From Candidatus Thiodiazotropha endolucinida (GTDB lineage Bacteria; Pseudomonadota; Gammaproteobacteria; Chromatiales; Chromatiaceae): a DNA stretch of 64,000 nucleotides. The notes under the pieces are model-generated. The model saw only the letters and a list, made by a program, of their open reading frames with translations. It was not told where the DNA came from and ran no database searches. Shown here piece by piece: positions 13,683 through 60,743 of the stretch; the stretch's first letter is position 1, and each line of letters opens with the position of its first letter. A program made the position numbers and the translations under genes. The stretch is taken from positions 1 through 64,000 of the forward strand of contig NZ_MARB01000021.1 of assembly GCF_001715975.1 (NCBI RefSeq), in the 5' to 3' direction.

Positions 13683-15068
13683 ATGGCATTAGACCAATCA
13701 TCCCGTTACTCGGACCTCAGCCTGAAGGAAGAGGATCTCATTGCCGGCGGCCAGCATATCCTGTGCGCCTACAAGATGAAGCCCGCCTCAGGCTATGGCT
13801 TCCTCGAGGTAGCCTCCCACTTCGCCGCCGAATCCTCCACCGGCACCAACGTCGAGGTCTGCACGACCGACGACTTCACCAAGGGCGTGGACGCGCTTGT
13901 CTACCACATCGACGAAGCGACCGAGGAAATGCGCATCGCCTACCCGATCGATCTGTTCGACCGCAACATGATCGACGGCCGTATGATGCTGGTCTCCTTC
14001 CTGACCCTCACCATCGGCAACAACCAGGGCATGGGCGACTGCGAGTACGCCAAGATGTACGACTTCTTCATGCCGCCACGCGCCATCCAGCTGTTCGACG
14101 GTCCGGCCAAGGATATCTCCGACCTGTGGCGTATGCTGGGTCGTCCGGTGGTTGACGGCGGTTACATCGCCGGTACCATCATCAAGCCCAAGCTGGGCCT
14201 GCGCCCCGAACCTTTCGCAGAAGCGGCCTATCAATTCTGGCTGGGTGGCGATTTCATCAAGAACGACGAGCCCCAGGGCAATCAGGTCTTCTGTCCCGCC
14301 AAGAAAGTCTATCCCCTGGTCTACGACGCCATGAAGCGCGCCATGGACGAGACCGGCGAGGCCAAGCTCTTCTCCGCCAACATCACCGCGGACGACCACG
14401 CCGAGATGATCGCCCGCGGCGAGTTCATCCTCGATGCCTTCGGCCCAGACGCCGACAAGGTAGCCTTCCTGGTCGACGGCTACGTGGGCGGTCCGGGTAT
14501 GGTCACCACCGCCCGTCGCTACTTCCCCGGCCAGTACCTGCACTACCACCGTGCCGGTCACGGCGCCGTCACCTCCCCCAGTTCCAAGCGCGGCTACACC
14601 GCCTACGTGCTGGCCAAGATGTCACGCCTGCAGGGCGCCTCCGGTATCCATGTCGGTACCATGGGCTACGGCAAGATGGAGGGGTCCAAAGACGACCGCA
14701 ACATCGCCTACATCATCGAGCGCGACGAGTACCAGGGCCCAGCCTACAACCAGAAGTGGTACGGCATGAAGCCCACCACCCCGATCATCTCCGGCGGCAT
14801 GAACGCCCTGCGTCTGCCCGGCTTCTTCGAGAACCTGGGCCACGGCAACGTGATCAACACCGCAGGTGGCGGCTCCTACGGTCACATCGACAGCCCGGCT
14901 GCCGGTGCCACCTCCCTGCGTCAGGCCTATGAGTGCTGGAAGGCCGGCGCAGATCCCATCGAGTGGGCCAAGGAGCACAAAGAGTTCGCACGTGCTTTCG
15001 AATCCTTCCCGCACGATGCGGATGCGATCTTCCCAGGTTGGCGCGAAAAGCTGGGTGTGCACAAATAA
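13683..15068 (+). CDS. cbbM: RuBisCO form II large subunit
   Basis: Form II RuBisCO is a large-subunit-only enzyme (L2 or multiples), typically favoured at high CO2 and low O2. The form II segments are clear: [22 protein letters not shown], the catalytic [20 protein letters not shown] (about residues 164-183) and the carbamylated lysine K193 in [14 protein letters not shown]. The 461-residue length is normal. Like cbbL it has strong codon bias and an empty long reading frame on the other strand. A textbook terminator follows at 15099, so cbbM is probably made mostly as a single-gene message with read-through or a separate promoter for cbbQ2. Confidence 0.98.
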
Positions 15069-15272: not shown

Positions 15273-16079
15273 ATGAGTGCCGACACCGAGCAATACCTGG
15301 TCAAACAGGAACCCTACTACCAACCTCAGGAAGATGAGATTGAGCTCTATGAGGCTGCCTACGCCGAAAGACTCCCGGTGATGATCAAGGGACCGACCGG
15401 TTGCGGAAAGTCACGCTTCGTAGAACACATGGCCTGGCGGCTTGGCAAACCCCTGATCACGGTGGCCTGTAACGAGGATATGACCGCATCGGATCTTGTC
15501 GGCCGCTACCTGTTGGATTCCGAAGGGACACGCTGGCTGGATGGGCCACTGACCGTAGCCGCCCGCATCGGCGCCATCTGCTATCTCGATGAGGTGGTGG
15601 AAGCCAGACAGGACACCACCGTTGTGATCCACCCCCTGACAGATCATCGGCGAACCCTGCCTCTCGATAAAAAAGGCGAAGTGTTGGACGCCCATGAGAA
15701 TTTCCAACTGGTGATCTCCTATAACCCGGGCTATCAGAGTTTGATGAAGGATCTCAAACAGTCAACCAAACAGCGCTTCTCTGCGCTCGATTTCGATTAT
15801 GCACCATCAGCCCTGGAGGCCTCGATTATCGCCAAGGAGACCGGTATCGACGAAGAGAAAGCCACCAGGCTGGTGAAGATCGGTGAGACAGCACGCAACC
15901 TGAAAGGACACGGTCTGGACGAAGGCATCTCGACCCGGTTGCTGGTCTATGCCGCGAGACTGGTAAAACGTGGTATCAAACCCAGGGCCGCCTGCCGCAT
16001 GGCCCTGGTCAGACCGATCACTGACGACAAGGACATTGTCGCAACCCTCGATCATGCGATTGAGGCTGTTTTTGGATAG
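15273..16079 (+). CDS. cbbQ: RuBisCO activase AAA+ subunit CbbQ (form II partner)
   Basis: A second CbbQ, 268 residues, with Walker A GPTGCGKS at residues 40-47, Walker [11 protein letters not shown], and the same STKQRF arginine region as the copy after cbbS. It acts with the downstream CbbO to reactivate RuBisCO. The position directly after cbbM marks it as the form II partner. GGAG lies about 8 bases before the ATG. The 204-bp gap from cbbM contains a strong terminator, so it is probably transcribed at a lower level than cbbM. Unlike the form I cluster, no extra gene lies between this cbbQ and its cbbO. Confidence 0.94.
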   Translation: MSADTEQYLVKQEPYYQPQEDEIELYEAAYAERLPVMIKGPTGCGKSRFVEHMAWRLGKPLITVACNEDMTASDLVGRYLLDSEGTRWLDGPLTVAARIGAICYLDEVVEARQDTTVVIHPLTDHRRTLPLDKKGEVLDAHENFQLVISYNPGYQSLMKDLKQSTKQRFSALDFDYAPSALEASIIAKETGIDEEKATRLVKIGETARNLKGHGLDEGISTRLLVYAARLVKRGIKPRAACRMALVRPITDDKDIVATLDHAIEAVFG

Positions 16080-16203
16080 GGCTTTTTACAAGCCGCATGA
16101 CACCCATGATCGAAGCGAAGGGTACGGCTTGCTGCATCGAGGCCGTCTATCCCAAGTAGCCAAAATGATATGTACATTTGCAACCATTCGCGTTCATTTG
16201 CGG
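16080..16203. repeat. decayed copy of the GTCCGCAAATGAACGC element (cbbQ2-cbbO2 spacer)
   Basis: ATTCGCGTTCATTTGCGG (16186-16203) is the right end of the element family found complete at 48021-48210. Upstream in the same spacer GGGTACGGCTTGCTGC is a degraded form of the GGTGCGGC hairpin found inside that element. The left end is not recognisable. The repeat ends about 30 bp before the cbbO2 start, and no clear ribosome binding site remains there. Confidence 0.55.
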
Positions 16204-16233
16204 CCTTCTGAATAAACGGTATATGCAAGCCCA

Positions 16234-18468
16234 ATGACACAAGAGCGAGAGCAACTCAACTGCGGCTTCCGGGAGATCGACCCGGTCTTTGACGATTGCC
16301 TGGCCAACGCCCGCCGCCATATGAGCGACGCGGGGGTTGACGCCTATCTGGAAGGGGCCTCCCTGACCTGCAAAATCGGCCGCGGCGTGGAACCGGTCAT
16401 CGTGTTCCTCGAAGAGATGCCGGAGATCACAGCCCGGGTGGGTGAGGCGGTTATTTCCAAGATATCGCAAACCGTATGGAAGATCTCGCGCAGTCCCAAC
16501 GGCAAGGCGATACTCCCTTTTCTGCAGATGCTGCCCGAGGCGAGCCGCAGGCTGGGCAGCGCAGAACTGATGGAGCGCTTTATCGATCTGCTGCTGGAGA
16601 TGATGGAGCAGACATCCGGTTCCATTCACGGTTTTCATACCACCATACCCAGCCCTTCCCTGCCGGATCTGTTGAAAAAAACCCCCTATCTGCTGAGCCA
16701 GCTATCCTGCGAGGGATTCCGTAACTGGGTCGACTACGGGATCCGCAACTACCGTACCCATCCACAGCGCCAGATCGACTACTTCAGCCTGCAGTCCGCC
16801 GACAGCCGGGCAATTCTGCAGCGTGAGCGGCACGGGACCCTGTTCGCCGATCACGAACGCAAACTCGATCTCTACCTGAAATCCCTGTGGCGCACCAAGG
16901 ACCACTTCGTCCCCTACTCGGAAGGCTTCGACGAACTGCGCAAACCCATGCCCTACTACGACTCACTGGGGATACGCATACCCGATGTGTATGACGATTT
17001 TCACGGTGTCGCCGGAATCGACCGCTACCGTGCGCTGTTGGCACATGTCGCCGGTCACAAACGCTGGACCGGCCATGTGGTCGCGGACAATTACAGCCCC
17101 TTTCAGCGTGTCGCCATCGAGACCTTCGAGGATGCCAGGGTCGATCTGCTCGTCACCCGGGAGTATCCCGGTTTGCGCAATACCCTCCTGAAACTGCACC
17201 CCGCACCCGGCGAGGAAGACTGTGATCCGGAAAAAGAGTCCTGCATCCGACACCGGTTGGCGATGTTCTCATATGCAGCCTTGAATCCGGATCACGGCTA
17301 CACCAATCCCGACCTGCTGGAGTTTCTGGGTCGCTTCAGTTCAGCGCTGACCGACAGTCTATCGAGCACCCAGGAGATGGCCGGGCTTGCCATTTCCTAT
17401 ATCGCCCGTACCCGCCGTCAGGCGGATCTCTCCGCCAATGTCTATTTCACGGATACCGAAGTGAGCTACCGTGACGACAACCGCCACATGTGGATCTTCA
17501 TTGAAGAGGGAGATGAGGAAGAGATGTTCGATGCGGAGCAAAAGCGCAAAACATCGGACGAGGAGGTCGAGGGTCTGCCACCCCGCCACTACCCGGAGTG
17601 GGACTACAAGAGTAAGACCTACAACCCGGACTGGGTCAGTCTGTATGAGAGCCTCCATCCCCAGGGAGATGCCGGTTTTATCGATGCCCTGCTGCAAAAG
17701 CACCAGACCATGGCGAAACAGCTGAAACGCCTGCTGGATCTGCTCAAACCGCAACAGTATGTGCGTATACGCTACCAGGAGGAGGGTAGCGAGCTCGATC
17801 TCGATGTGGCGATCCGGTCATTAATCGAATACAAGAGCGGCCACAATCCCGATCCGCGGATCAACATGAGTCATCGCAACGATGGGCGGGATATTACGGT
17901 AATGCTGCTGATCGACCTATCCGAGTCTGTGGACCAGATCCCCGAGGGCTCCCAGCAATCGATACTGCAGCTCAGCCAGGAGGCGGTCTCCCTGTTGGGC
18001 TGGGCTATCGAACAGTTGGGTGACAGCTTCGCGATCGCCGGTTTCTCATCCAACACCCGGCATGAGGTCCGATACCAGCACATCAAAGGATATGCCGAAC
18101 ACTGGAACGATGCGGTCAAAGGGCGTCTGGCCGCCATGCAGGCAGGCTGGTCAACCCGCATGGGGGCCGCCATCCGCCACGCCTCACACTATCTGGGCGC
18201 CAGGCAGGCAGATAAGAAGCTGATGCTGATACTCACCGATGGGGAACCCGCCGATATCGATGTCCACGATGACCGCCTGCTCATCGAGGACAGCCGCAAG
18301 GCCGTACTGGAAGCGGAACAGGAGGGCATCTATACCTACTGCATCAACCTTGATCCCCAAGCCGATGACTATGTGAGAGATATTTTTGGTCACCAATTCA
18401 CGATCATCGACCGGATTGAGCGGTTGCCGGAACTGCTGCCTAGACTTTTCATGGCCTTGACGAAATAG
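16234..18468 (+). CDS. cbbO: RuBisCO activase VWA subunit CbbO (form II partner)
   Basis: A 744-residue CbbO paralogue, about 50 residues shorter than the form I partner. The C-terminal VWA domain has its MIDAS motif DLSESVD at about residue 561, and TDGEPADIDVHDD and YTYCINLDPQADDYV follow, matching the first CbbO. It is predicted to bind RuBisCO form II and CbbQ2. The start ATG at 16234 has no evident ribosome binding site; the spacer upstream carries a decayed repeat. The VWA tail ends at the same point as in the other copy, so the protein is complete. Confidence 0.92.
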   Translation: MTQEREQLNCGFREIDPVFDDCLANARRHMSDAGVDAYLEGASLTCKIGRGVEPVIVFLEEMPEITARVGEAVISKISQTVWKISRSPNGKAILPFLQMLPEASRRLGSAELMERFIDLLLEMMEQTSGSIHGFHTTIPSPSLPDLLKKTPYLLSQLSCEGFRNWVDYGIRNYRTHPQRQIDYFSLQSADSRAILQRERHGTLFADHERKLDLYLKSLWRTKDHFVPYSEGFDELRKPMPYYDSLGIRIPDVYDDFHGVAGIDRYRALLAHVAGHKRWTGHVVADNYSPFQRVAIETFEDARVDLLVTREYPGLRNTLLKLHPAPGEEDCDPEKESCIRHRLAMFSYAALNPDHGYTNPDLLEFLGRFSSALTDSLSSTQEMAGLAISYIARTRRQADLSANVYFTDTEVSYRDDNRHMWIFIEEGDEEEMFDAEQKRKTSDEEVEGLPPRHYPEWDYKSKTYNPDWVSLYESLHPQGDAGFIDALLQKHQTMAKQLKRLLDLLKPQQYVRIRYQEEGSELDLDVAIRSLIEYKSGHNPDPRINMSHRNDGRDITVMLLIDLSESVDQIPEGSQQSILQLSQEAVSLLGWAIEQLGDSFAIAGFSSNTRHEVRYQHIKGYAEHWNDAVKGRLAAMQAGWSTRMGAAIRHASHYLGARQADKKLMLILTDGEPADIDVHDDRLLIEDSRKAVLEAEQEGIYTYCINLDPQADDYVRDIFGHQFTIIDRIERLPELLPRLFMALTK

Positions 18469-18643: not shown

Positions 18644-19708
18644 ATGAAACAGACAGACGATCTTCGCATTAAGGCAATCAAAGAACTGAGCCCCCCCGCT
18701 CAGATTCATCAAGAACTTCCCATCACGGAAAAGGCGGCCGATACTGTGTATTCGACACGGCAGCGGATACATCACATTTTGCATGACGAAGATGACCGAC
18801 TACTGGTTATTATCGGGCCCTGTTCGGTACATGACCCCGAAGCCGCCATGGAGTATGCCCGGCGTTTACAACCGGTGCGCGAACGGCTGAAGGATGATCT
18901 TGAAGTGGTGATGCGCGTTTATTTTGAAAAACCCAGGACTACAGTCGGCTGGAAGGGATTGATCAACGATCCGACCCTTGACGACAGATTCGAGATCAAT
19001 TCGGGTTTGCGCCTGGCCAGAAAACTCCTTCTGGACATCAATAATCTGGGGGTTCCAGCCGGCACGGAATACCTGGACCTGATCAGTCCGCAATATATCG
19101 CCGACCTGATCAGCTGGGGCGCAATTGGCGCCCGCACAACCGAAAGCCAGGCCCACCGTGAACTCGCATCGGGCCTCTCATGTCCGGTGGGATTCAAGAA
19201 CGCAACCAACGGCAGTATGCGGGTCGCTCTCGATGCAATTCGTTCGTCCTCCCGCCCCCACCATTTCCTGTCAGTCACCAAGGAGGGCAGGTCCGCTATC
19301 TTCTCAACACATGGCAACCAGGATTGCCACGTTATTCTTAGAGGCGGCAGCCGTCCCAACTATGACTCGGAGAGTATCAACATTGCAGCGGAGGAGATGG
19401 AAAGCAATGGTCTGAAAGCCAGGGTGATGATCGATTTCAGCCATGCCAACAGCCGCAAGCAACATCCCCGACAGCTCCTCGTAGGACGCGATGTGGCCAG
19501 CCAGATTGCACGGGGAGACCAACGTATCATGGGAGCCATGATCGAGAGTTTTCTGATCGAGGGTAGACAGGACAGAATAGAGGGTGAGACCCTGGCCTAT
19601 GGCCAGAGTATTACGGACGCCTGTATCAGTTGGGAAAACAGTGAGCCACTATTGGAAACCTTGGCCGAAGCAGTCAGACAACGGCGTGAATTCGTTGCAG
19701 CGGCTTGA
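18644..19708 (+). CDS. aroG: 3-deoxy-7-phosphoheptulonate synthase (DAHP synthase, class I)
   Basis: DAHP synthase condenses phosphoenolpyruvate with erythrose 4-phosphate, the first step of aromatic amino acid synthesis. The class I enzyme is evident from IIGPCSVHDPEAAMEYA, RVYFEKPRTTVGWKG, GARTTESQAHRELASG, GFKNATNGS and VMIDFSHANSRKQ. At 354 residues it has the usual length of the feedback-sensitive AroF/G/H group; which amino acid inhibits it cannot be told here. The upstream 175 bp contain no clear operator. The next gene starts about 30 bp downstream on the same strand. Confidence 0.93.
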   Translation: MKQTDDLRIKAIKELSPPAQIHQELPITEKAADTVYSTRQRIHHILHDEDDRLLVIIGPCSVHDPEAAMEYARRLQPVRERLKDDLEVVMRVYFEKPRTTVGWKGLINDPTLDDRFEINSGLRLARKLLLDINNLGVPAGTEYLDLISPQYIADLISWGAIGARTTESQAHRELASGLSCPVGFKNATNGSMRVALDAIRSSSRPHHFLSVTKEGRSAIFSTHGNQDCHVILRGGSRPNYDSESINIAAEEMESNGLKARVMIDFSHANSRKQHPRQLLVGRDVASQIARGDQRIMGAMIESFLIEGRQDRIEGETLAYGQSITDACISWENSEPLLETLAEAVRQRREFVAAA

Positions 19709-19740: not shown

Positions 19741-19866
19741 ATGCCTGAAGAAGCAATTGAGTTATTGGTATTAGGTAACACCACACCTGAAGTTGAGGCC
19801 TATCTAGATGCCTTGCGTAACAATGGCAACCCGGCACACGCCACACGCCACACGCATCGAGCATGA
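19741..19866 (+). CDS. N-terminal fragment of FimX-like protein, out of frame after a 7-bp repeat
   Basis: The frame starting at ATG 19741 reads PEEAIELLVLGNTT and then a helix, the expected first beta strand and helix of a response-regulator-like domain. It then enters the CACACGC repeats and stops at 19864-19866. With two repeat copies instead of three it would run on without a break into the downstream 19808-21835 frame to give a 695-residue protein. It is therefore listed as the true 5' end of the next gene, disconnected in this sequence. Confidence 0.65.
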   Translation: MPEEAIELLVLGNTTPEVEAYLDALRNNGNPAHATRHTHRA

Positions 19867-21835
19867 TGCCGATCAGCTGGGCTCAGCACTGAAAGAGAAA
19901 AGATCACTGGATCTGTTGCTCTACACCATCGAAAACGAAGCGCTGGACACAACACATCTATTTGCCATCATTGGCGCTATCAATCCTATCATTCCCGTTG
20001 TCGCCGTATGTGACTCGCCCGATGAAGAGCTGCAGCTGGATCTGATGCGGCAGGGCGTTACAGACCTGGTGCAACGAAAAAATCATCCGCATCTTGTGCA
20101 GGTAATTCTTCGCGAACACAAGCATCTCAGTGGCATGCGCCGCTTGCAGCGGCTGGAGCGCCAGCTTGAAGAAGCCGAGGAGCGCTGTGATGCGCTTACG
20201 GAAAGCTCTAGAGATGCCATCGCCTATGTACATGAAGGTATGCATGTCACTGCCAACCGCGCCTATTTAGAGCTGTTCGGGCTCGCCGGGGAGGATGAAA
20301 TCGAGGGGCTCCCCATACTGGACATGATTGCATCCGCCGAACATCAGACGTTTAAAAAACTGCTGCGCAAACTGAGTGCCGATAGTGACTATTCAAGTGA
20401 AGTGAAAACCACGTGCGTTCGCGACAACGGCACCGAATTCAGTGCAGAGCTCCATTTCACGCCCGCCAGTATAGATGGTGAAGCATGCACACAAGTCATC
20501 ATCCGCGATCAATCGATCTCCAGGGAAGTCGAGGAAAAGCTGCGCCTGCTCAGTACCCAAGATGTACAGACGGGTCTCTACAACCGCCAATATTTCATTG
20601 GCCAACTGGACGAAGAAGCCAAACATCACTTTGATCGCGGTCAAAACCCACAGACGCTGCTTTACATCACTCTGGACAATTTCACAGAAATACGCAGTAA
20701 AACCGGTATCAAAAAGAGCGATGCGCTGCTGCTGGAGATTGCGGGGGAGATTCGTAAAATTGTCTCGAAAAACGATCTTCTCGCACGTTTTGGCGATCAT
20801 ACCTTTACCATTCTCACTGCAAAGCAGGAGCTGGCGGCTACTGAAGAAAAAGCCCGTAAAATCTGTGACACCGTAGCCTCTCATACCTTTCAGGAAAGCG
20901 ACAGCGACATCAATCCAAGCTGCAGCATCGGTGTGGTTTTCTCATCCGATGATGTACTCAGCGGCCACGATTTTATTACCCAAGCCTACCATGCCTGCGA
21001 GCACGCCCGTTCCAATGGCGGCAACGATTTCTATATCACCGACAGCCAAATTCCGGAAGACACGCAAACTACGGCCAGTGAGGCCAATCTCAGCAATCTG
21101 ATTCGCTATGCCTTCGAAAACAATCAGTTTCAATTGGCGTATCAACCCATTGTCAGCCTACATGGCGATACCAGGGAGAACTATGCGATCACAGTCCGCC
21201 TGATTGATGAAAGCAAGGAGGAGATCCAACCCGAGCATTTTCTCAACCAGGTCAAATCACTGAACAGAATGCCGGAACTGGATCGTTGGGTCATTCGCCA
21301 TGCCATCGATGAACTCGCGACACAGCGTAAACAAGGTAAAAAAATCAATTTCCTGATCAGTATTTCCGGCGCAACGCTGGAAGATGACACCTTGTTGCTG
21401 TTCATTTGCGATTGCCTGCGGGATTACGAAGCCAAAGGCTCCTGGGTGACCTTTCAGTTCGATGACGATGAGGCCCGATCACACCTGCACCAACTGCAGA
21501 AACTGGCTGAGGGATTGAAAAAGATTAAATGTAAAACCTGCTTGGGTCATTTCGGCTTAGCGAAAAAGCCCGAAGCCATTCTCAATAGTTTCCCCCTGGA
21601 TTTCATTCAATTTCACAGCTATTTCCTCTCCGATCTGTTCGAAAATCAAGACAAGCAGGATGCCTTGAATCATCTCAATGAAGTGATACAGGCAGAAAAT
21701 ATCAAGACCATTGCCTCAGGTGTGGAGGATGCCAGCAGTCTGGCCATTCTCTGGTCAATCGGCGTCAACTATATTCGCGGTTATTTTATCCAGGAACCTT
21801 CAGCATCCATCGATTACGATTTCCATACTGATTGA
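19808..21835 (+). CDS. FimX-like c-di-GMP protein (REC-like, PAS, degenerate GGDEF and EAL)
   Basis: The layout from the N-terminus is a response-regulator-like domain without clear phosphoacceptor (to about residue 110), a coiled linker, a PAS domain (about 130-230), a GGDEF domain and an EAL domain. The GGDEF signature is degenerate (RFGDHTF), and the first EAL motif is replaced (NYAITVRL after FQLAYQPIV), so the protein should bind c-di-GMP or act as a scaffold rather than make or cut it. FimX of Pseudomonas and Xanthomonas, which controls type IV pili, has the same order and degeneracy. The frame given is the only one open in this sequence and must use an internal ATG at 19808 or 19823, losing the first beta strand. 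See the repeat at 19835. Confidence 0.8.
   Translation: MPCVTMATRHTPHATRIEHDADQLGSALKEKRSLDLLLYTIENEALDTTHLFAIIGAINPIIPVVAVCDSPDEELQLDLMRQGVTDLVQRKNHPHLVQVILREHKHLSGMRRLQRLERQLEEAEERCDALTESSRDAIAYVHEGMHVTANRAYLELFGLAGEDEIEGLPILDMIASAEHQTFKKLLRKLSADSDYSSEVKTTCVRDNGTEFSAELHFTPASIDGEACTQVIIRDQSISREVEEKLRLLSTQDVQTGLYNRQYFIGQLDEEAKHHFDRGQNPQTLLYITLDNFTEIRSKTGIKKSDALLLEIAGEIRKIVSKNDLLARFGDHTFTILTAKQELAATEEKARKICDTVASHTFQESDSDINPSCSIGVVFSSDDVLSGHDFITQAYHACEHARSNGGNDFYITDSQIPEDTQTTASEANLSNLIRYAFENNQFQLAYQPIVSLHGDTRENYAITVRLIDESKEEIQPEHFLNQVKSLNRMPELDRWVIRHAIDELATQRKQGKKINFLISISGATLEDDTLLLFICDCLRDYEAKGSWVTFQFDDDEARSHLHQLQKLAEGLKKIKCKTCLGHFGLAKKPEAILNSFPLDFIQFHSYFLSDLFENQDKQDALNHLNEVIQAENIKTIASGVEDASSLAILWSIGVNYIRGYFIQEPSASIDYDFHTD
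19835..19855 (+). repeat. three perfect tandem copies of CACACGC in the coding region
   Basis: The copies are at 19835-19841, 19842-19848 and 19849-19855. Because 7 is not a multiple of 3, each gain or loss of a unit shifts the frame. Three copies split the gene into the frames 19741-19866 and 19808-21835; two (or five) copies join them. This is the form of a slipped-strand contingency locus. Confidence 0.85.
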
Positions 21836-21886: not shown

Positions 21887-22157
21887 CTAGGGCCTGTTAA
21901 CACTAATCCAATACGCCCTGTTGTGCCTGAAAAAGCGCCAATCAAGGCGCGAGGAGAGAGGTTTGGTTATTCCAAATGAGCGACGAGCAACGCCGAGTGG
22001 CGCTTTTTCAGGCGCAACCCGAAGGGCTGGGGCTGTTTTTGCGCCCAGCGGCGTTATCATTCGCTCATGTAGCATAACTACACCTCGCTCATTCTGCCTT
22101 GCTGGACACAAAAACAGCCCCAGCAGGGCGTATTGGATTAGTGTTAACAGGCCCTAG
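21887..22157. mobile_element. 271-bp MITE-like element with 34-bp perfect terminal inverted repeats
   Basis: The bases 21887-21920 and 22124-22157 are exact inverted copies of each other, beginning CTAGGGCCTGTTAACACTAA. Nested inside are a second inverted pair, CTGAAAAAGCGCC (about 21927) with GGCGCTTTTTCAG (about 22001), and a third, GGGGCTGTTTTTG with CAAAAACAGCCCC. The short open frames in it are repeat products without a plausible gene. It fills the spacer between the convergent FimX-like gene and the coiled-coil protein gene. Single ends of the same family lie at 41083-41117 and 45038-45053. Confidence 0.8.
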
Positions 22158-49396: not shown

Positions 49397-52078
49397 ATGC
49401 AATCACACTATTTGACGTCTCTCTTCTCTCCAAAAAGCATCGCCATGTTTGGTGCCAGTGACAGGAAGAATTCAGTCGGTGAGGTGGTATTTAAAAATCT
49501 CATATCATCCGGATTCAAGGGGGATATATACCCGATCAACCTCAAACACGACAAAGTTCAGGGTATTAAGGCTTATAAAAGTATCGAGGCAATCATCAAA
49601 CCTGTCGAGCTCGCTGTCGTCGCCACACCGGCAAAGACTATACCTGCTATTGTGCAGGCCTGCGGCGAACATGGTGTCAAGACCATGATCATACTCTCTG
49701 CCGGGTTTCGTGAATCCGGAACCGCCGGCCGGCGTCTTGAAGACAAGATTGTTGAACTGGCAAAGGACTATGGGATGCGCTTCATCGGTCCCAACTGTCT
49801 TGGCCTGATTCGACCGGATCAAGGCATCAATATTACCTTCGGCAACAACAATGCAGCCCCCGGCAATCTGGCGCTCGTTTCTCAGTCGGGAGCAATCTGC
49901 ACTGCCATCCTCGATTGGGCGGAGGTCAACGATATCGGTTTCTCAACCGTCATCTCCACCGGTATCGGGGCGGATCTGGATTTTGGCGACTACCTTGATT
50001 TCCTGGTATCGGATCCCATGACGGACAGTATCCTGCTGTATGTGGAGGGCATAAAGGACGCACGTCGCTTTATGAGTGGCTTGAGGGCAGCGGCGCGCAT
50101 CAAACCCGTCATTGTACTCAAGGTGGGACGGCATGCGGCCGGGGCGGAAGCCTCAATGTCACACACCGGCGCCCTGGTAGGCAGCGATGAAACCTTTTCC
50201 GCCGCGCTCTCCCGTTCCGGCGTATTGCGTGTGGAGACCATTTCACAACTCTTCTCCGCCGCCAAGGCGCTCTCTTCCCGCTATCGGGTCTATGGCGACA
50301 GGCTGGCTATTATTACCAATGGTGGTGGTCCGGGCGTCATGGCCGCCGACAGGGCTTCCGACCTGAATATCGAACTGGCGGAACTCAATGATCAAACAAT
50401 CGATGCATTGAACAAAGTGCTGCCGGATGTATGGTCCCATGGAAATCCCGTGGACATTATCGGTGACGCCCCCCCCGAGCGCTACCGTGCCGCAGTCGAC
50501 ATCTGTCTCAACGATCCCGCTGTGGACGGCACCATCGTCATACTGACCCCTCAGGCGATGACCGAACCGGAAGAGGTAGCCAGGGCACTGATCGATTTGG
50601 CGGATTCCCATAAGAAACCGATCCTGACCAGCTGGATGGGAGGCAAGCAGATCGAAACTGCGCGCAAGCTGTTCAAAGACGCCAGATTACCCAGTTTTCG
50701 TACCCTGGAAAACGCAGTCGATGCCTTCTCCTACCTCTCTTCCTATCAGAAGAATCAGCGCCTGTTACTACAGACACCCGCCAAGAGTTCCCGTCGGCAC
50801 ATCCAGCCCGATACCGAAGGGGCGCGCCTCATTATAGAAAGCGCTCTGTCGGAACAGCGTAAGATCCTCACCGAGCCCGAATCATTTGCCTTGCTCGGCG
50901 CATTCCGCATCAACGCGGTACGTAACGGTATTGCACGTTCCGCCAATGAGGCGTTGATCCTGGCGGAATCGATCGGTTTCCCCGTTGCCATGAAGATCTA
51001 CTCACCCGACATCTCCCACAAATCCGACGCCGGCGGCATTCGACTCAATATCAGCAATGCCCAGGTTGTACGGAGTACCTATCGGGATCTGATCGAACAA
51101 GTCAAGGAGACCCGTCCCGAAGCGAATGTGGAGGGCGTGACTGTCGAGCAGATGTATCAGAGTCCGAATGGACGGGAACTCCTCATCGGTATCGTGCGTG
51201 ATCCGGTATTCGGGCCGGTTATCAGTTTCGGCAGCGGCGGCACCGCGGTGGAAGTGATGGGCGACTCGGCGATTGCCCTGCCACCCCTCAACCGCAGCCT
51301 CGCCAGCGATCTGATCGACCGCACCAAGGCGGCAAAACTGCTGAGTCAGTTCCGGCATATGCCACCCGCCAATCGCGAGGCACTCATCGATGTATTGTTG
51401 CGGGTATCGACCATGGCTTGTGAACTGCCTTGGATTCGTGAGATGGATATCAATCCATTGATTGTCGATGATCAAGGGGCGGTCGCCGTGGATGCACGTA
51501 TACGGGTCGATTTCCCACGCCCATCCACCGATCCCTATCACCATCTGGCCATCCATCCCTACCCGGTAAATCTGGTCAACACCACCCAGTTGCCCAACGG
51601 CACCAATATCGTGATCAGGCCCATCCGCCCGGAAGACGCCGACCTGGAACAGACCTTCACCCGCCAGCTCTCCGATGAAGCAAAATATTTCCGCTTCATG
51701 AGTTCGATACAGGAACTGACCCCGGAGATGCTGACGCGATTCACGCAGATCGACTATCACAATGAGATGGCCCTGATCGCAGTCACCGAGGATGGCAACC
51801 ATGAAATCGAATTGGGTGTCGCCCGCTATGTGATCAACCCTGACAAAAAGAGCTGCGAATTCGCCCTGGTGGTATCCGATCAGTGGCAACGCCAGGGCAT
51901 CGGGCACAAGCTGATGCACCAGCTGATGGAGGTTGCCCGCGATCGCGGTCTGGAAAAAATGGAGGGCGAAGTATTGAGCAACAATTTCAAGATGCTCGAC
52001 CTGATGAAATCACTCTACTTCCATATCTCCACATCGCCGGACGACAACAGCATCAAGCAGGTAGTGATCGACCTGTAG
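49397..52078 (+). CDS. Pat-type protein lysine acetyltransferase (NDP-forming acyl-CoA synthetase-like plus GNAT)
   Basis: The 893 residues have the domain order of bacterial Pat (YfiQ/PatZ). First comes a CoA-binding domain (about 1-130, SIAMFGASDRKNSVGEVVFKN), then succinyl-CoA-ligase-like domains, then an ATP-grasp domain (about 490-700, FPVAMKIYSPDISHKSDAGG, then GTAVEVMGDSAIALPPL). A C-terminal GNAT acetyltransferase domain (about 725-893, RQGIGHKLMHQLMEVARDRG) follows. In well-studied homologues the GNAT part acetylates acetyl-CoA synthetase and other proteins while the ligase-like part is regulatory. A working ADP-forming ligase cannot be excluded. It is divergent from a histone-deacetylase-family gene. 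Confidence 0.9.
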   Translation: MQSHYLTSLFSPKSIAMFGASDRKNSVGEVVFKNLISSGFKGDIYPINLKHDKVQGIKAYKSIEAIIKPVELAVVATPAKTIPAIVQACGEHGVKTMIILSAGFRESGTAGRRLEDKIVELAKDYGMRFIGPNCLGLIRPDQGINITFGNNNAAPGNLALVSQSGAICTAILDWAEVNDIGFSTVISTGIGADLDFGDYLDFLVSDPMTDSILLYVEGIKDARRFMSGLRAAARIKPVIVLKVGRHAAGAEASMSHTGALVGSDETFSAALSRSGVLRVETISQLFSAAKALSSRYRVYGDRLAIITNGGGPGVMAADRASDLNIELAELNDQTIDALNKVLPDVWSHGNPVDIIGDAPPERYRAAVDICLNDPAVDGTIVILTPQAMTEPEEVARALIDLADSHKKPILTSWMGGKQIETARKLFKDARLPSFRTLENAVDAFSYLSSYQKNQRLLLQTPAKSSRRHIQPDTEGARLIIESALSEQRKILTEPESFALLGAFRINAVRNGIARSANEALILAESIGFPVAMKIYSPDISHKSDAGGIRLNISNAQVVRSTYRDLIEQVKETRPEANVEGVTVEQMYQSPNGRELLIGIVRDPVFGPVISFGSGGTAVEVMGDSAIALPPLNRSLASDLIDRTKAAKLLSQFRHMPPANREALIDVLLRVSTMACELPWIREMDINPLIVDDQGAVAVDARIRVDFPRPSTDPYHHLAIHPYPVNLVNTTQLPNGTNIVIRPIRPEDADLEQTFTRQLSDEAKYFRFMSSIQELTPEMLTRFTQIDYHNEMALIAVTEDGNHEIELGVARYVINPDKKSCEFALVVSDQWQRQGIGHKLMHQLMEVARDRGLEKMEGEVLSNNFKMLDLMKSLYFHISTSPDDNSIKQVVIDL

Positions 52079-52139: not shown

Positions 52140-52293
52140 ATGAGTTTTTAGTTTTGAGTTATGAGTTTTTAGTTGTATGTGTTCGCTTCGCTCACGCTTT
52201 TTTTCCCTACAGTCTGACCGACCCAAGAGGAAGAGAATCAAAAACAAGTTGTGCGATTTACCGCACTCATCCAACTCAAAACTAAAAACTCAT
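52140..52293. mobile_element. A/T-rich inverted-repeat element downstream of rplS
   Basis: The first 21 bases (starting ATGAGTTTTTAGTTTTGAGT) and the last 21 (52273-52293) are exact inverted copies. Each arm is made of hexamer-like A/T units. The centre contains ATGTGTTCGCTTCGCTCACG and TTGTGCGA. A similar element with other arm sequence lies at about 54392-54521, so the two flank the rpsP-rimM-trmD-rplS operon. Confidence 0.65.
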
Positions 52294-52317
52294 AACTCAT
52301 AACTCATGACTAAGAAC

Positions 52318-52350
52318 AAAAAAGCCGCTCTGTCCAACAACAGAGCGGCT
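52318..52350 (-). terminator. rho-independent terminator of the rpsP-rplS operon
   Basis: On the minus strand AGCCGCTCTG and CAGAGCGGCT form a perfect 10-bp stem (52323-52332 and 52341-52350) with an 8-base loop, followed by six T. It lies 32 bp past the rplS stop. Confidence 0.93.
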
Positions 52351-60338: not shown

Positions 60339-60743
60339 GATCTAATTCCTCTATCGAACCGGCGACGGCATCTATCTAAGCGCTCTATCACCGGTGATTT
60401 GCATTTAGCGGATATACCAACAATTTTGGTATTTACCGCCTCCGATATTTGTAGCGGCCCCCAGCCCTGGAACTTTAACCCATATCACACTTTACCCACC
60501 TGCGCCCCGCCTCCCATCAGTCAGCGTTACTTATTGATTATACTGGAGTTTATAAGAATTACCGATCGTCTTCCGTAAGGAAGCAATATCCTATGCCTTA
60601 GCTTCCCTAATTTTTCGCAAAAGACCTACACGCGCATCGATTCAGCGAAGATCGGTTTCGACTGCCTGATACGGGACTTTGGAGTATCTGTTGCAAGACG
60701 GGCAGGCTCTGCGGCTCGACAGCAGCCCGCAGCGTCCTGCCGT
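60339..60743 (-). other. 405-bp spacer between fliC and flgL with fliC leader
   Basis: The spacer contains the fliC promoter and an untranslated leader of roughly 100 bases. Its other end carries a structured region just after the flgL stop: ACGGCAGG and CTGCGG pair with CCGCAG and CCTGCCCGT (about 60694-60743), an interrupted hairpin without a T run that may end the flgK-flgL transcript. No further gene is seen. Confidence 0.5.
60451..60477 (-). promoter_or_regulatory. sigma-28 (FliA) type promoter of fliC
   Basis: On the minus strand TAAA (60477-60474), exactly 15 bases and GCCGCTAC (60458-60451) match the FliA consensus TAAA-N15-GCCGATAA at all four -35 bases and six of eight -10 bases. 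Position upstream of flagellin is as expected for a class III promoter. Confidence 0.75.

Follow-up and report, generated by a model that had tools for sequence, protein, structure and literature searches.

The window, by which we mean the whole 64,000-nucleotide stretch of DNA that was analyzed, comes from a 4.49-Mb draft genome in 55 contigs. The genus is Candidatus Thiodiazotropha, and the nearest named genomes are those of gill symbionts of lucinid clams. The window carries a fimX gene whose reading frame is broken near its start by one extra unit of a 7-bp tandem repeat. The features of this region are as follows:

13683-15068: cbbM-like ORF (named by eye)
18644..19708, + strand: DAHP synthase-like gene (named by eye), the upstream neighbor of fimX, which served as the selection control
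19741..19866, + strand: 5' part of fimX, 41 codons from the conserved start, followed by a TGA that is due to the extra repeat unit
19808..21835, + strand: downstream fimX frame of 675 codons, which begins at an internal ATG preceded by GAGG and encodes PAS, GGDEF, and EAL domains
19835..19855, + strand: three perfect CACACGC units, 7 bp (one unit) more than in any congener examined

With regard to the cbbM-like ORF, Ca. T. endolucinida is reported to encode form II RuBisCO (PMC6712303), and the window may belong to this species or to a close relative of it. A table in PMC11168628 lists 37 MAGs of Ca. T. endolucinida.

Translation of the frame that begins at ATG 19741 places its stop codon at 19864-19866, and the downstream frame runs without interruption from ATG 19808 to a stop codon at 21833-21835. 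The preliminary description of this locus had placed three perfect CACACGC copies within the coding region and had the frame from ATG 19741 stop at 19866 when three copies are present, and both statements are confirmed, the second by translation. Its further claim, that two copies would give a single protein of 695 residues, agrees with the 31 codons before and 659 codons after the tract and with the 695-codon frame of the two nearest congeners. Since the repeat unit is 7 bp long, a change in copy number shifts fimX in or out of frame.

ATG 19808 lies directly 3' of an in-frame stop and has a Shine-Dalgarno-like GAGG. The predicted ribosome-site energy is -5.6 kcal/mol at this ATG, compared with -3.3 kcal/mol at ATG 19741; these values are equaled by 10% and 29%, respectively, of 300 random window ATGs. 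Because ATG 19808 scores better than ATG 19741, some product from it is plausible. Two other routes to the downstream frame were rejected. The overlap contains no slippery run evident by eye that would allow translational recoding across the junction, and coupling at the ATGATG near the stop (19863-19868) fails on arithmetic, as neither ATG is in the downstream frame.

The locus is the genome's best fimX match. Pfam detects PAS, GGDEF, and EAL domains, in that order, both in the downstream piece and in a whole congener protein. The best solved relative is FimX (4j40, E value of 4e-68), and the five best-scoring chains are all named FimX. At the alignment positions that we take to be the GGDEF and EAL signature sites, GDHTF and AIT stand opposite GDSIF and EVL of the solved FimX, and both signatures are degenerate. 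No Pfam match to a receiver domain was found in the two window pieces, nor at an E value of 0.01 in the whole congener protein. Of the REC-like, PAS, GGDEF, and EAL domains that had been assigned earlier, the last three therefore stand, and the label "REC-like," for which position and the FimX literature are the basis, is weaker than first stated.

A stretch of ~260 bp 3' of fimX (21891-22151) has no counterpart at the same place in genome G004, and in genome G020 its counterpart is in the opposite orientation elsewhere within the stretch compared. This segment looks like a small repeated element.

fimX in related genomes

We compared the locus with 21 species besides the window genome, each represented by one genome, most of which are named Candidatus Thiodiazotropha. 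The gene is present in 22/22 genus genomes, the window's own included. In 20 of the 21 congeners it is a single uninterrupted frame of 693 to 697 codons with a matching N-terminus, and in the remaining one (G011) it is cut by contig ends and has the same in-frame N-terminus. The 5' part is thus a genuine N-terminus, the same in all 21 congeners, as the preliminary description had suggested in calling it nonrandom. The extra 7 bp is absent from 21/21 congeners, and a count of CACACGC units shows three copies in none of these relatives. The earlier claim that one extra heptamer puts a FimX-type gene out of frame is therefore supported.

The two closest relatives, G004 and G020 (98% protein identity), each have one 695-codon frame and carry the imperfect two-unit repeat CACACGC CACGCGC where the window has three CACACGC units, a difference of one synonymous substitution and one extra unit. 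Because the nearest relatives have this two-unit repeat, the window tract is, as judged by alignment, an expansion from two to three units.

A wider set was drawn from the best 80 of 547 loci, of which 79 gave an ORF (the missing locus is the G011 fragment). Alignment begins within the first six residues in 77 of the 79 ORFs, and the other two begin at residues 48 and 50. In an N-terminal alignment of 46 of these 79 relatives, G29 is invariant and L8, E19, and L25 are nearly invariant; by this alignment, all four residues belong to what the break removes. Where congeners have an ATG that matches ATG 19808, it is, by arithmetic, out of frame with the gene.

Over the 659 codons after the tract, the window and G004 differ by 47 bases and 8 residues. 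The dN/dS ratio for this comparison is 0.055 by the NG86 method and 0.088 by the YN00 method, compared with 0.081 (NG86) and 0.122 (YN00) for fimX between G004 and G020 and with 0.054 (NG86) and 0.077 (YN00) for the neighboring DAHP synthase gene. These ratios indicate that fimX after the tract is under purifying selection. When changes were assigned to branches, the window branch had synonymous/nonsynonymous counts of 10/4, 13/6, and 13/5 with G021, G006, and G019, respectively, as the outgroup, and the G004/G020 branch had counts of 10/0, 7/0, and 7/1; 7, 5, and 5 changes, respectively, were left unassigned. By these small counts, the window branch appears somewhat richer in nonsynonymous change, without clear relaxation of selection. 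Given that selection still preserves the remainder of the gene, the break either arose recently, is bypassed, can be reversed, or is not real.

Repeat arrays and other broken frames in the genome

None of 100 dinucleotide-shuffled versions of the window contained two adjacent CACACGC units. The three-unit pattern occurs once in the whole genome, which led us to reject the idea that this heptamer forms a genome-wide family. Heptamer arrays of TAACTGA are described in Beggiatoaceae (PMC4679880); a connection with these was also rejected, as three-unit TAACTSA has 0 matches in the genome. Repeat arrays were surveyed in 876,001 bases of the window genome, which comprise the window, 100 kb from the start of each of five contigs, a 12-kb pilB region, and 15 further 20-kb stretches. 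This sample contains 2 perfect heptamer arrays of at least three units, compared with 0.0 in 5 order-3 Markov simulations; one is the coding array in fimX, and the other is intergenic, at 52287. Two-unit heptamers are as frequent as in the simulations (57 versus 54.0), and three-unit arrays of a 4-bp motif are less frequent than simulated (6 versus 18.0). The fimX array is unusual, yet the 876-kb sample shows no program of repeat switches, and the many repeat-controlled genes that characterize phase-variable genomes were not encountered in it.

The intergenic array AACTAAA/AACTCAT (window positions 52273-52330) is 49 bp, or seven units, shorter than in G004; the length of this tract thus differs between close relatives.

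Several other genes in the window genome (G000) have broken or shifted frames, among them pilB, which encodes the partner ATPase of FimX:

G000 C6:113337-115017: pilB (locus L173), split into two frames at codon 430, where a run of six C's (C6 ~113,760) has become seven
G000 C7:46145-46170: phosphomannomutase/phosphoglucomutase gene (locus L218), with three AGCGAAC units and the last residues shifted
G000 C3:29111: gene for a GGDEF protein (locus L209), with 26 bp lost between two GGGGTAT repeats

The pilB region entered the survey of frame breaks described below because a targeted PilB search had found the break. pilB passes the family cutoff in 20/21 congeners; the exception is G001, in which it (locus L203) is broken by a different one-base change. 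In the window genome, pilin-, pilC-, and pilD-like genes close to pilB (named by eye) are open, as is pilQ. At the phosphomannomutase site, G004 and G020 have two AGCGAAC units; the alignments of 15/21 congeners span the site and are each 7 bases shorter, and the remaining 6 do not extend past it.

Two screens for frame breaks were made by comparison with G004. In the first, G004 ORFs of at least 150 codons were compared with the window genome; of 462 ORFs, 356 aligned and 22 were flagged, 7 as frame splits and 15 for in-frame stops only. Four splits were kept by eye (C3 57506, C3 29111, the phosphomannomutase gene, and pilB). The others were dropped once their sequences had been read: the ORF that has 20 bp inserted at C2 55498 is doubtful, C2 73410 is upstream of the likely start, and C3 97060 is between two divergent genes. 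The in-frame stop lies within the first 10 residues in 5 of the 15 rows, which reflects start choice, and further in for the other 10; examples are a response regulator (residue 166 of 231) and another gene (residue 104 of 663). A Pfam scan of 4 of the 15 rows, these two examples included, found all four to be real protein families. In the second screen, 246 ORFs gave 197 alignments and 11 flagged rows. ORFs of 701, 647, 2003, and 856 residues were kept by eye, with Pfam backing those of 647 and 856 residues, and seven rows were dropped by eye as contig-edge, start-choice, or doubtful ORFs.

Of the 553 ORFs aligned in the two screens, 8, including pilB, were retained by eye as frame splits, and fimX is a ninth. 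The first screen missed fimX because its 5' piece is too short, and breaks near gene ends are therefore undercounted. Breaks affect something like 1.5% of genes or more. In the reverse direction, the first screen flagged 26/362 ORFs, including five frame splits, two of which have Pfam support, and the second flagged 6/199. Because other breaks occur in the genome, the finding that pilB is broken as well as fimX is suggestive but falls short of proof.

Breaks are also seen in G004, a single-contig genome: its glycyl-tRNA synthetase beta gene (C1 ~2943874-2945960; loci L228 and L229), for example, has a one-base frame break, which is probably a residual indel error.

When 13.5 to 64 kb of the window was aligned to G004 and the gaps were read by eye, the fimX insertion was the sole frame-changing indel deep in a clearly conserved gene. 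Of the gaps that overlap a G004 ORF, those at 16098-16211 lie between window ORFs 15273-16079 and 16234-18468, those at 52077 and 52363 are at ORF ends, and the one at 60616 is within a 105-codon ORF.

Interpretation of the broken frame

The explanation that we favor, with modest confidence, is that the fimX frame is broken by a +7 slippage mutation that arose recently and is confined to the window lineage or to one strain. In the order of events that we infer from the two nearest relatives, a synonymous ACG-to-ACA change would have made two adjacent heptamers identical, and slippage would then have added a third. Ribosomes from ATG 19741 would halt after 41 codons, and some product that may begin at ATG 19808 would keep the EAL domain and lose native residues 1 to 32. 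These residues would be the start of the domain that is linked in FimX to dimerization and polar targeting. For Pseudomonas aeruginosa, one report models FimX dimerization via the REC domain, describes the amino-terminal domain as enough for polar targeting, with the EAL domain needed too, and states that FimX makes PilB-dependent assembly of pili faster (PMC5595344). In Xanthomonas citri, PilZ is reported to be the bridge between PilB and the FimX EAL domain (PMC8389850). The expected effect is that FimX function would be weak or absent and type IV pilus extension poor. If the fimX and pilB breaks are both real, the sequenced strain is probably pilus poor, with few or no pili. Because a three-unit tract could lose a unit again, the mutation would be reversible in principle.

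A slippage mutation is supported by the absence of the insertion from 21/21 congeners, by the imperfect two-unit repeat in the nearest of them, and by two similar lesions, the private heptamer expansion in the phosphomannomutase gene and the C6-to-C7 change in pilB. The lack of decay after the tract (659 open codons and a dN/dS ratio of 0.055) supports a recent break. That the fimX insertion is, by our reading of the gaps, the sole indel of its kind in the well-aligned part of the window also speaks for this explanation. Counting against a real mutation are the other breaks in the assembly (8 splits among 553 ORFs and 15 rows with in-frame stops) and the lack of clear relaxation of selection on the window branch, which would fit an error or a bypass as well. 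The connection to pili is indirect. If the breaks are real, a symbiont that is acquired from the environment would have naturally lost pilus control through lesions affecting both FimX and its partner PilB; this suggests that the sequenced strain can do without pili or that selection acts against them there.

A clearly less probable explanation, which nevertheless deserves weight, is a sequence or assembly error, in which case fimX would be intact in the organism, with two repeat units. Assembly errors are reported to be the source of many apparent pseudogenes (PMC11017572). The draft contains further breaks, several of them one-base changes at short runs, fimX is unbroken in 20/21 congeners (the last being cut by contig ends), and purifying selection acts downstream of the tract. 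However, a pure assembler duplication of the relatives' sequence would retain the variant CACGCGC, and each of the three units reads CACACGC; an error would thus require a substitution in the species as well. The gain of a 7-bp unit is also unusual for a base-calling error, and there are few coding indels in the window aligned to G004. If the insertion is an error, draft symbiont genomes can mimic contingency loci.

It is unlikely that the gene encodes a working N-terminal variant that starts at ATG 19808, with a remodeled first domain and with its localization altered and its function not abolished. The GAGG and the predicted energy of -5.6 kcal/mol at this ATG, together with 675 open residues under purifying selection, speak for such a variant. 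The residues lost are conserved, however (L8, E19, L25, and G29 in 46 aligned relatives of 79), and ATG 19808 is out of frame in the congeners, which argues that it is not an evolved start.

The preliminary description had proposed the tract as a candidate phase-variation switch. We consider it quite improbable that the tract often gains and loses a unit and so provides selected on/off switching of fimX and the pilus, which would make it a slippage switch on FimX. The unit length is not a multiple of three and the tract lies within a gene for a surface structure; in addition, three units is the lowest heptamer threshold of a Haemophilus influenzae repeat survey (PMC2651432), and the second private heptamer expansion and the pilB C7 run are slippage-type lesions in surface-related genes. 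Against this, the three-unit tract is short and is found in 0/21 congeners, with one genome per species. It is also the sole coding three-unit heptamer in 876 kb, in which 4-bp arrays are scarcer than simulated, and several other breaks are in genes without a surface role. The proposal is therefore not supported: nothing shows frequent or selected reversal of the fimX tract, and an evolved switch is unproven. Coordinated slippage control of type IV pili at the fimX heptamer and the pilB C run, with pilus extension OFF in the gill population and ON again in the environment, when hosts are sought, is very improbable.

Compared with FimX of P. aeruginosa and Xanthomonas, the gene has the same PAS-GGDEF-EAL order, degenerate signatures, and a length of ~690 to 700 residues in congeners; it differs in that the window frame is broken near its start and that the congener protein has no Pfam receiver domain. 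Symbionts of Ctena orbiculata are reported to express pilus-related genes in the gill (PMC6712303), which indicates that silence of pilus genes is not a general feature of the genus.

The best-ranked literature matches, which cover the literature in part, include no slippage switch on FimX. The fimX tract resembles the repeats of H. influenzae hmw1A and hmw2A in having a heptamer unit whose copy number could change by slippage. Those repeats are reported to be upstream of the genes and to reach 13 to 38 copies in some strains (PMC2651432), whereas fimX has three units inside the coding frame, in one genome only. The phase-variable c-di-GMP phosphodiesterases of Clostridioides difficile (PMC9286219) are likewise c-di-GMP pathway genes whose expression varies, as that of fimX would. 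They are described as varying by DNA inversion upstream of the genes (PMC9286219), in contrast to the coding repeat and candidate variation of fimX. With respect to the kind of mutation and its setting, fimX can also be compared with Escherichia coli lacI. The CTGG hotspot of lacI yields ordinary slippage frameshifts at a short coding repeat. In both cases a coding repeat of two or three units gains or loses one of them, a change that is reversible as a mutation; the cases differ in that the fimX unit is 7 bp rather than 4 bp and occurs in a wild symbiont.
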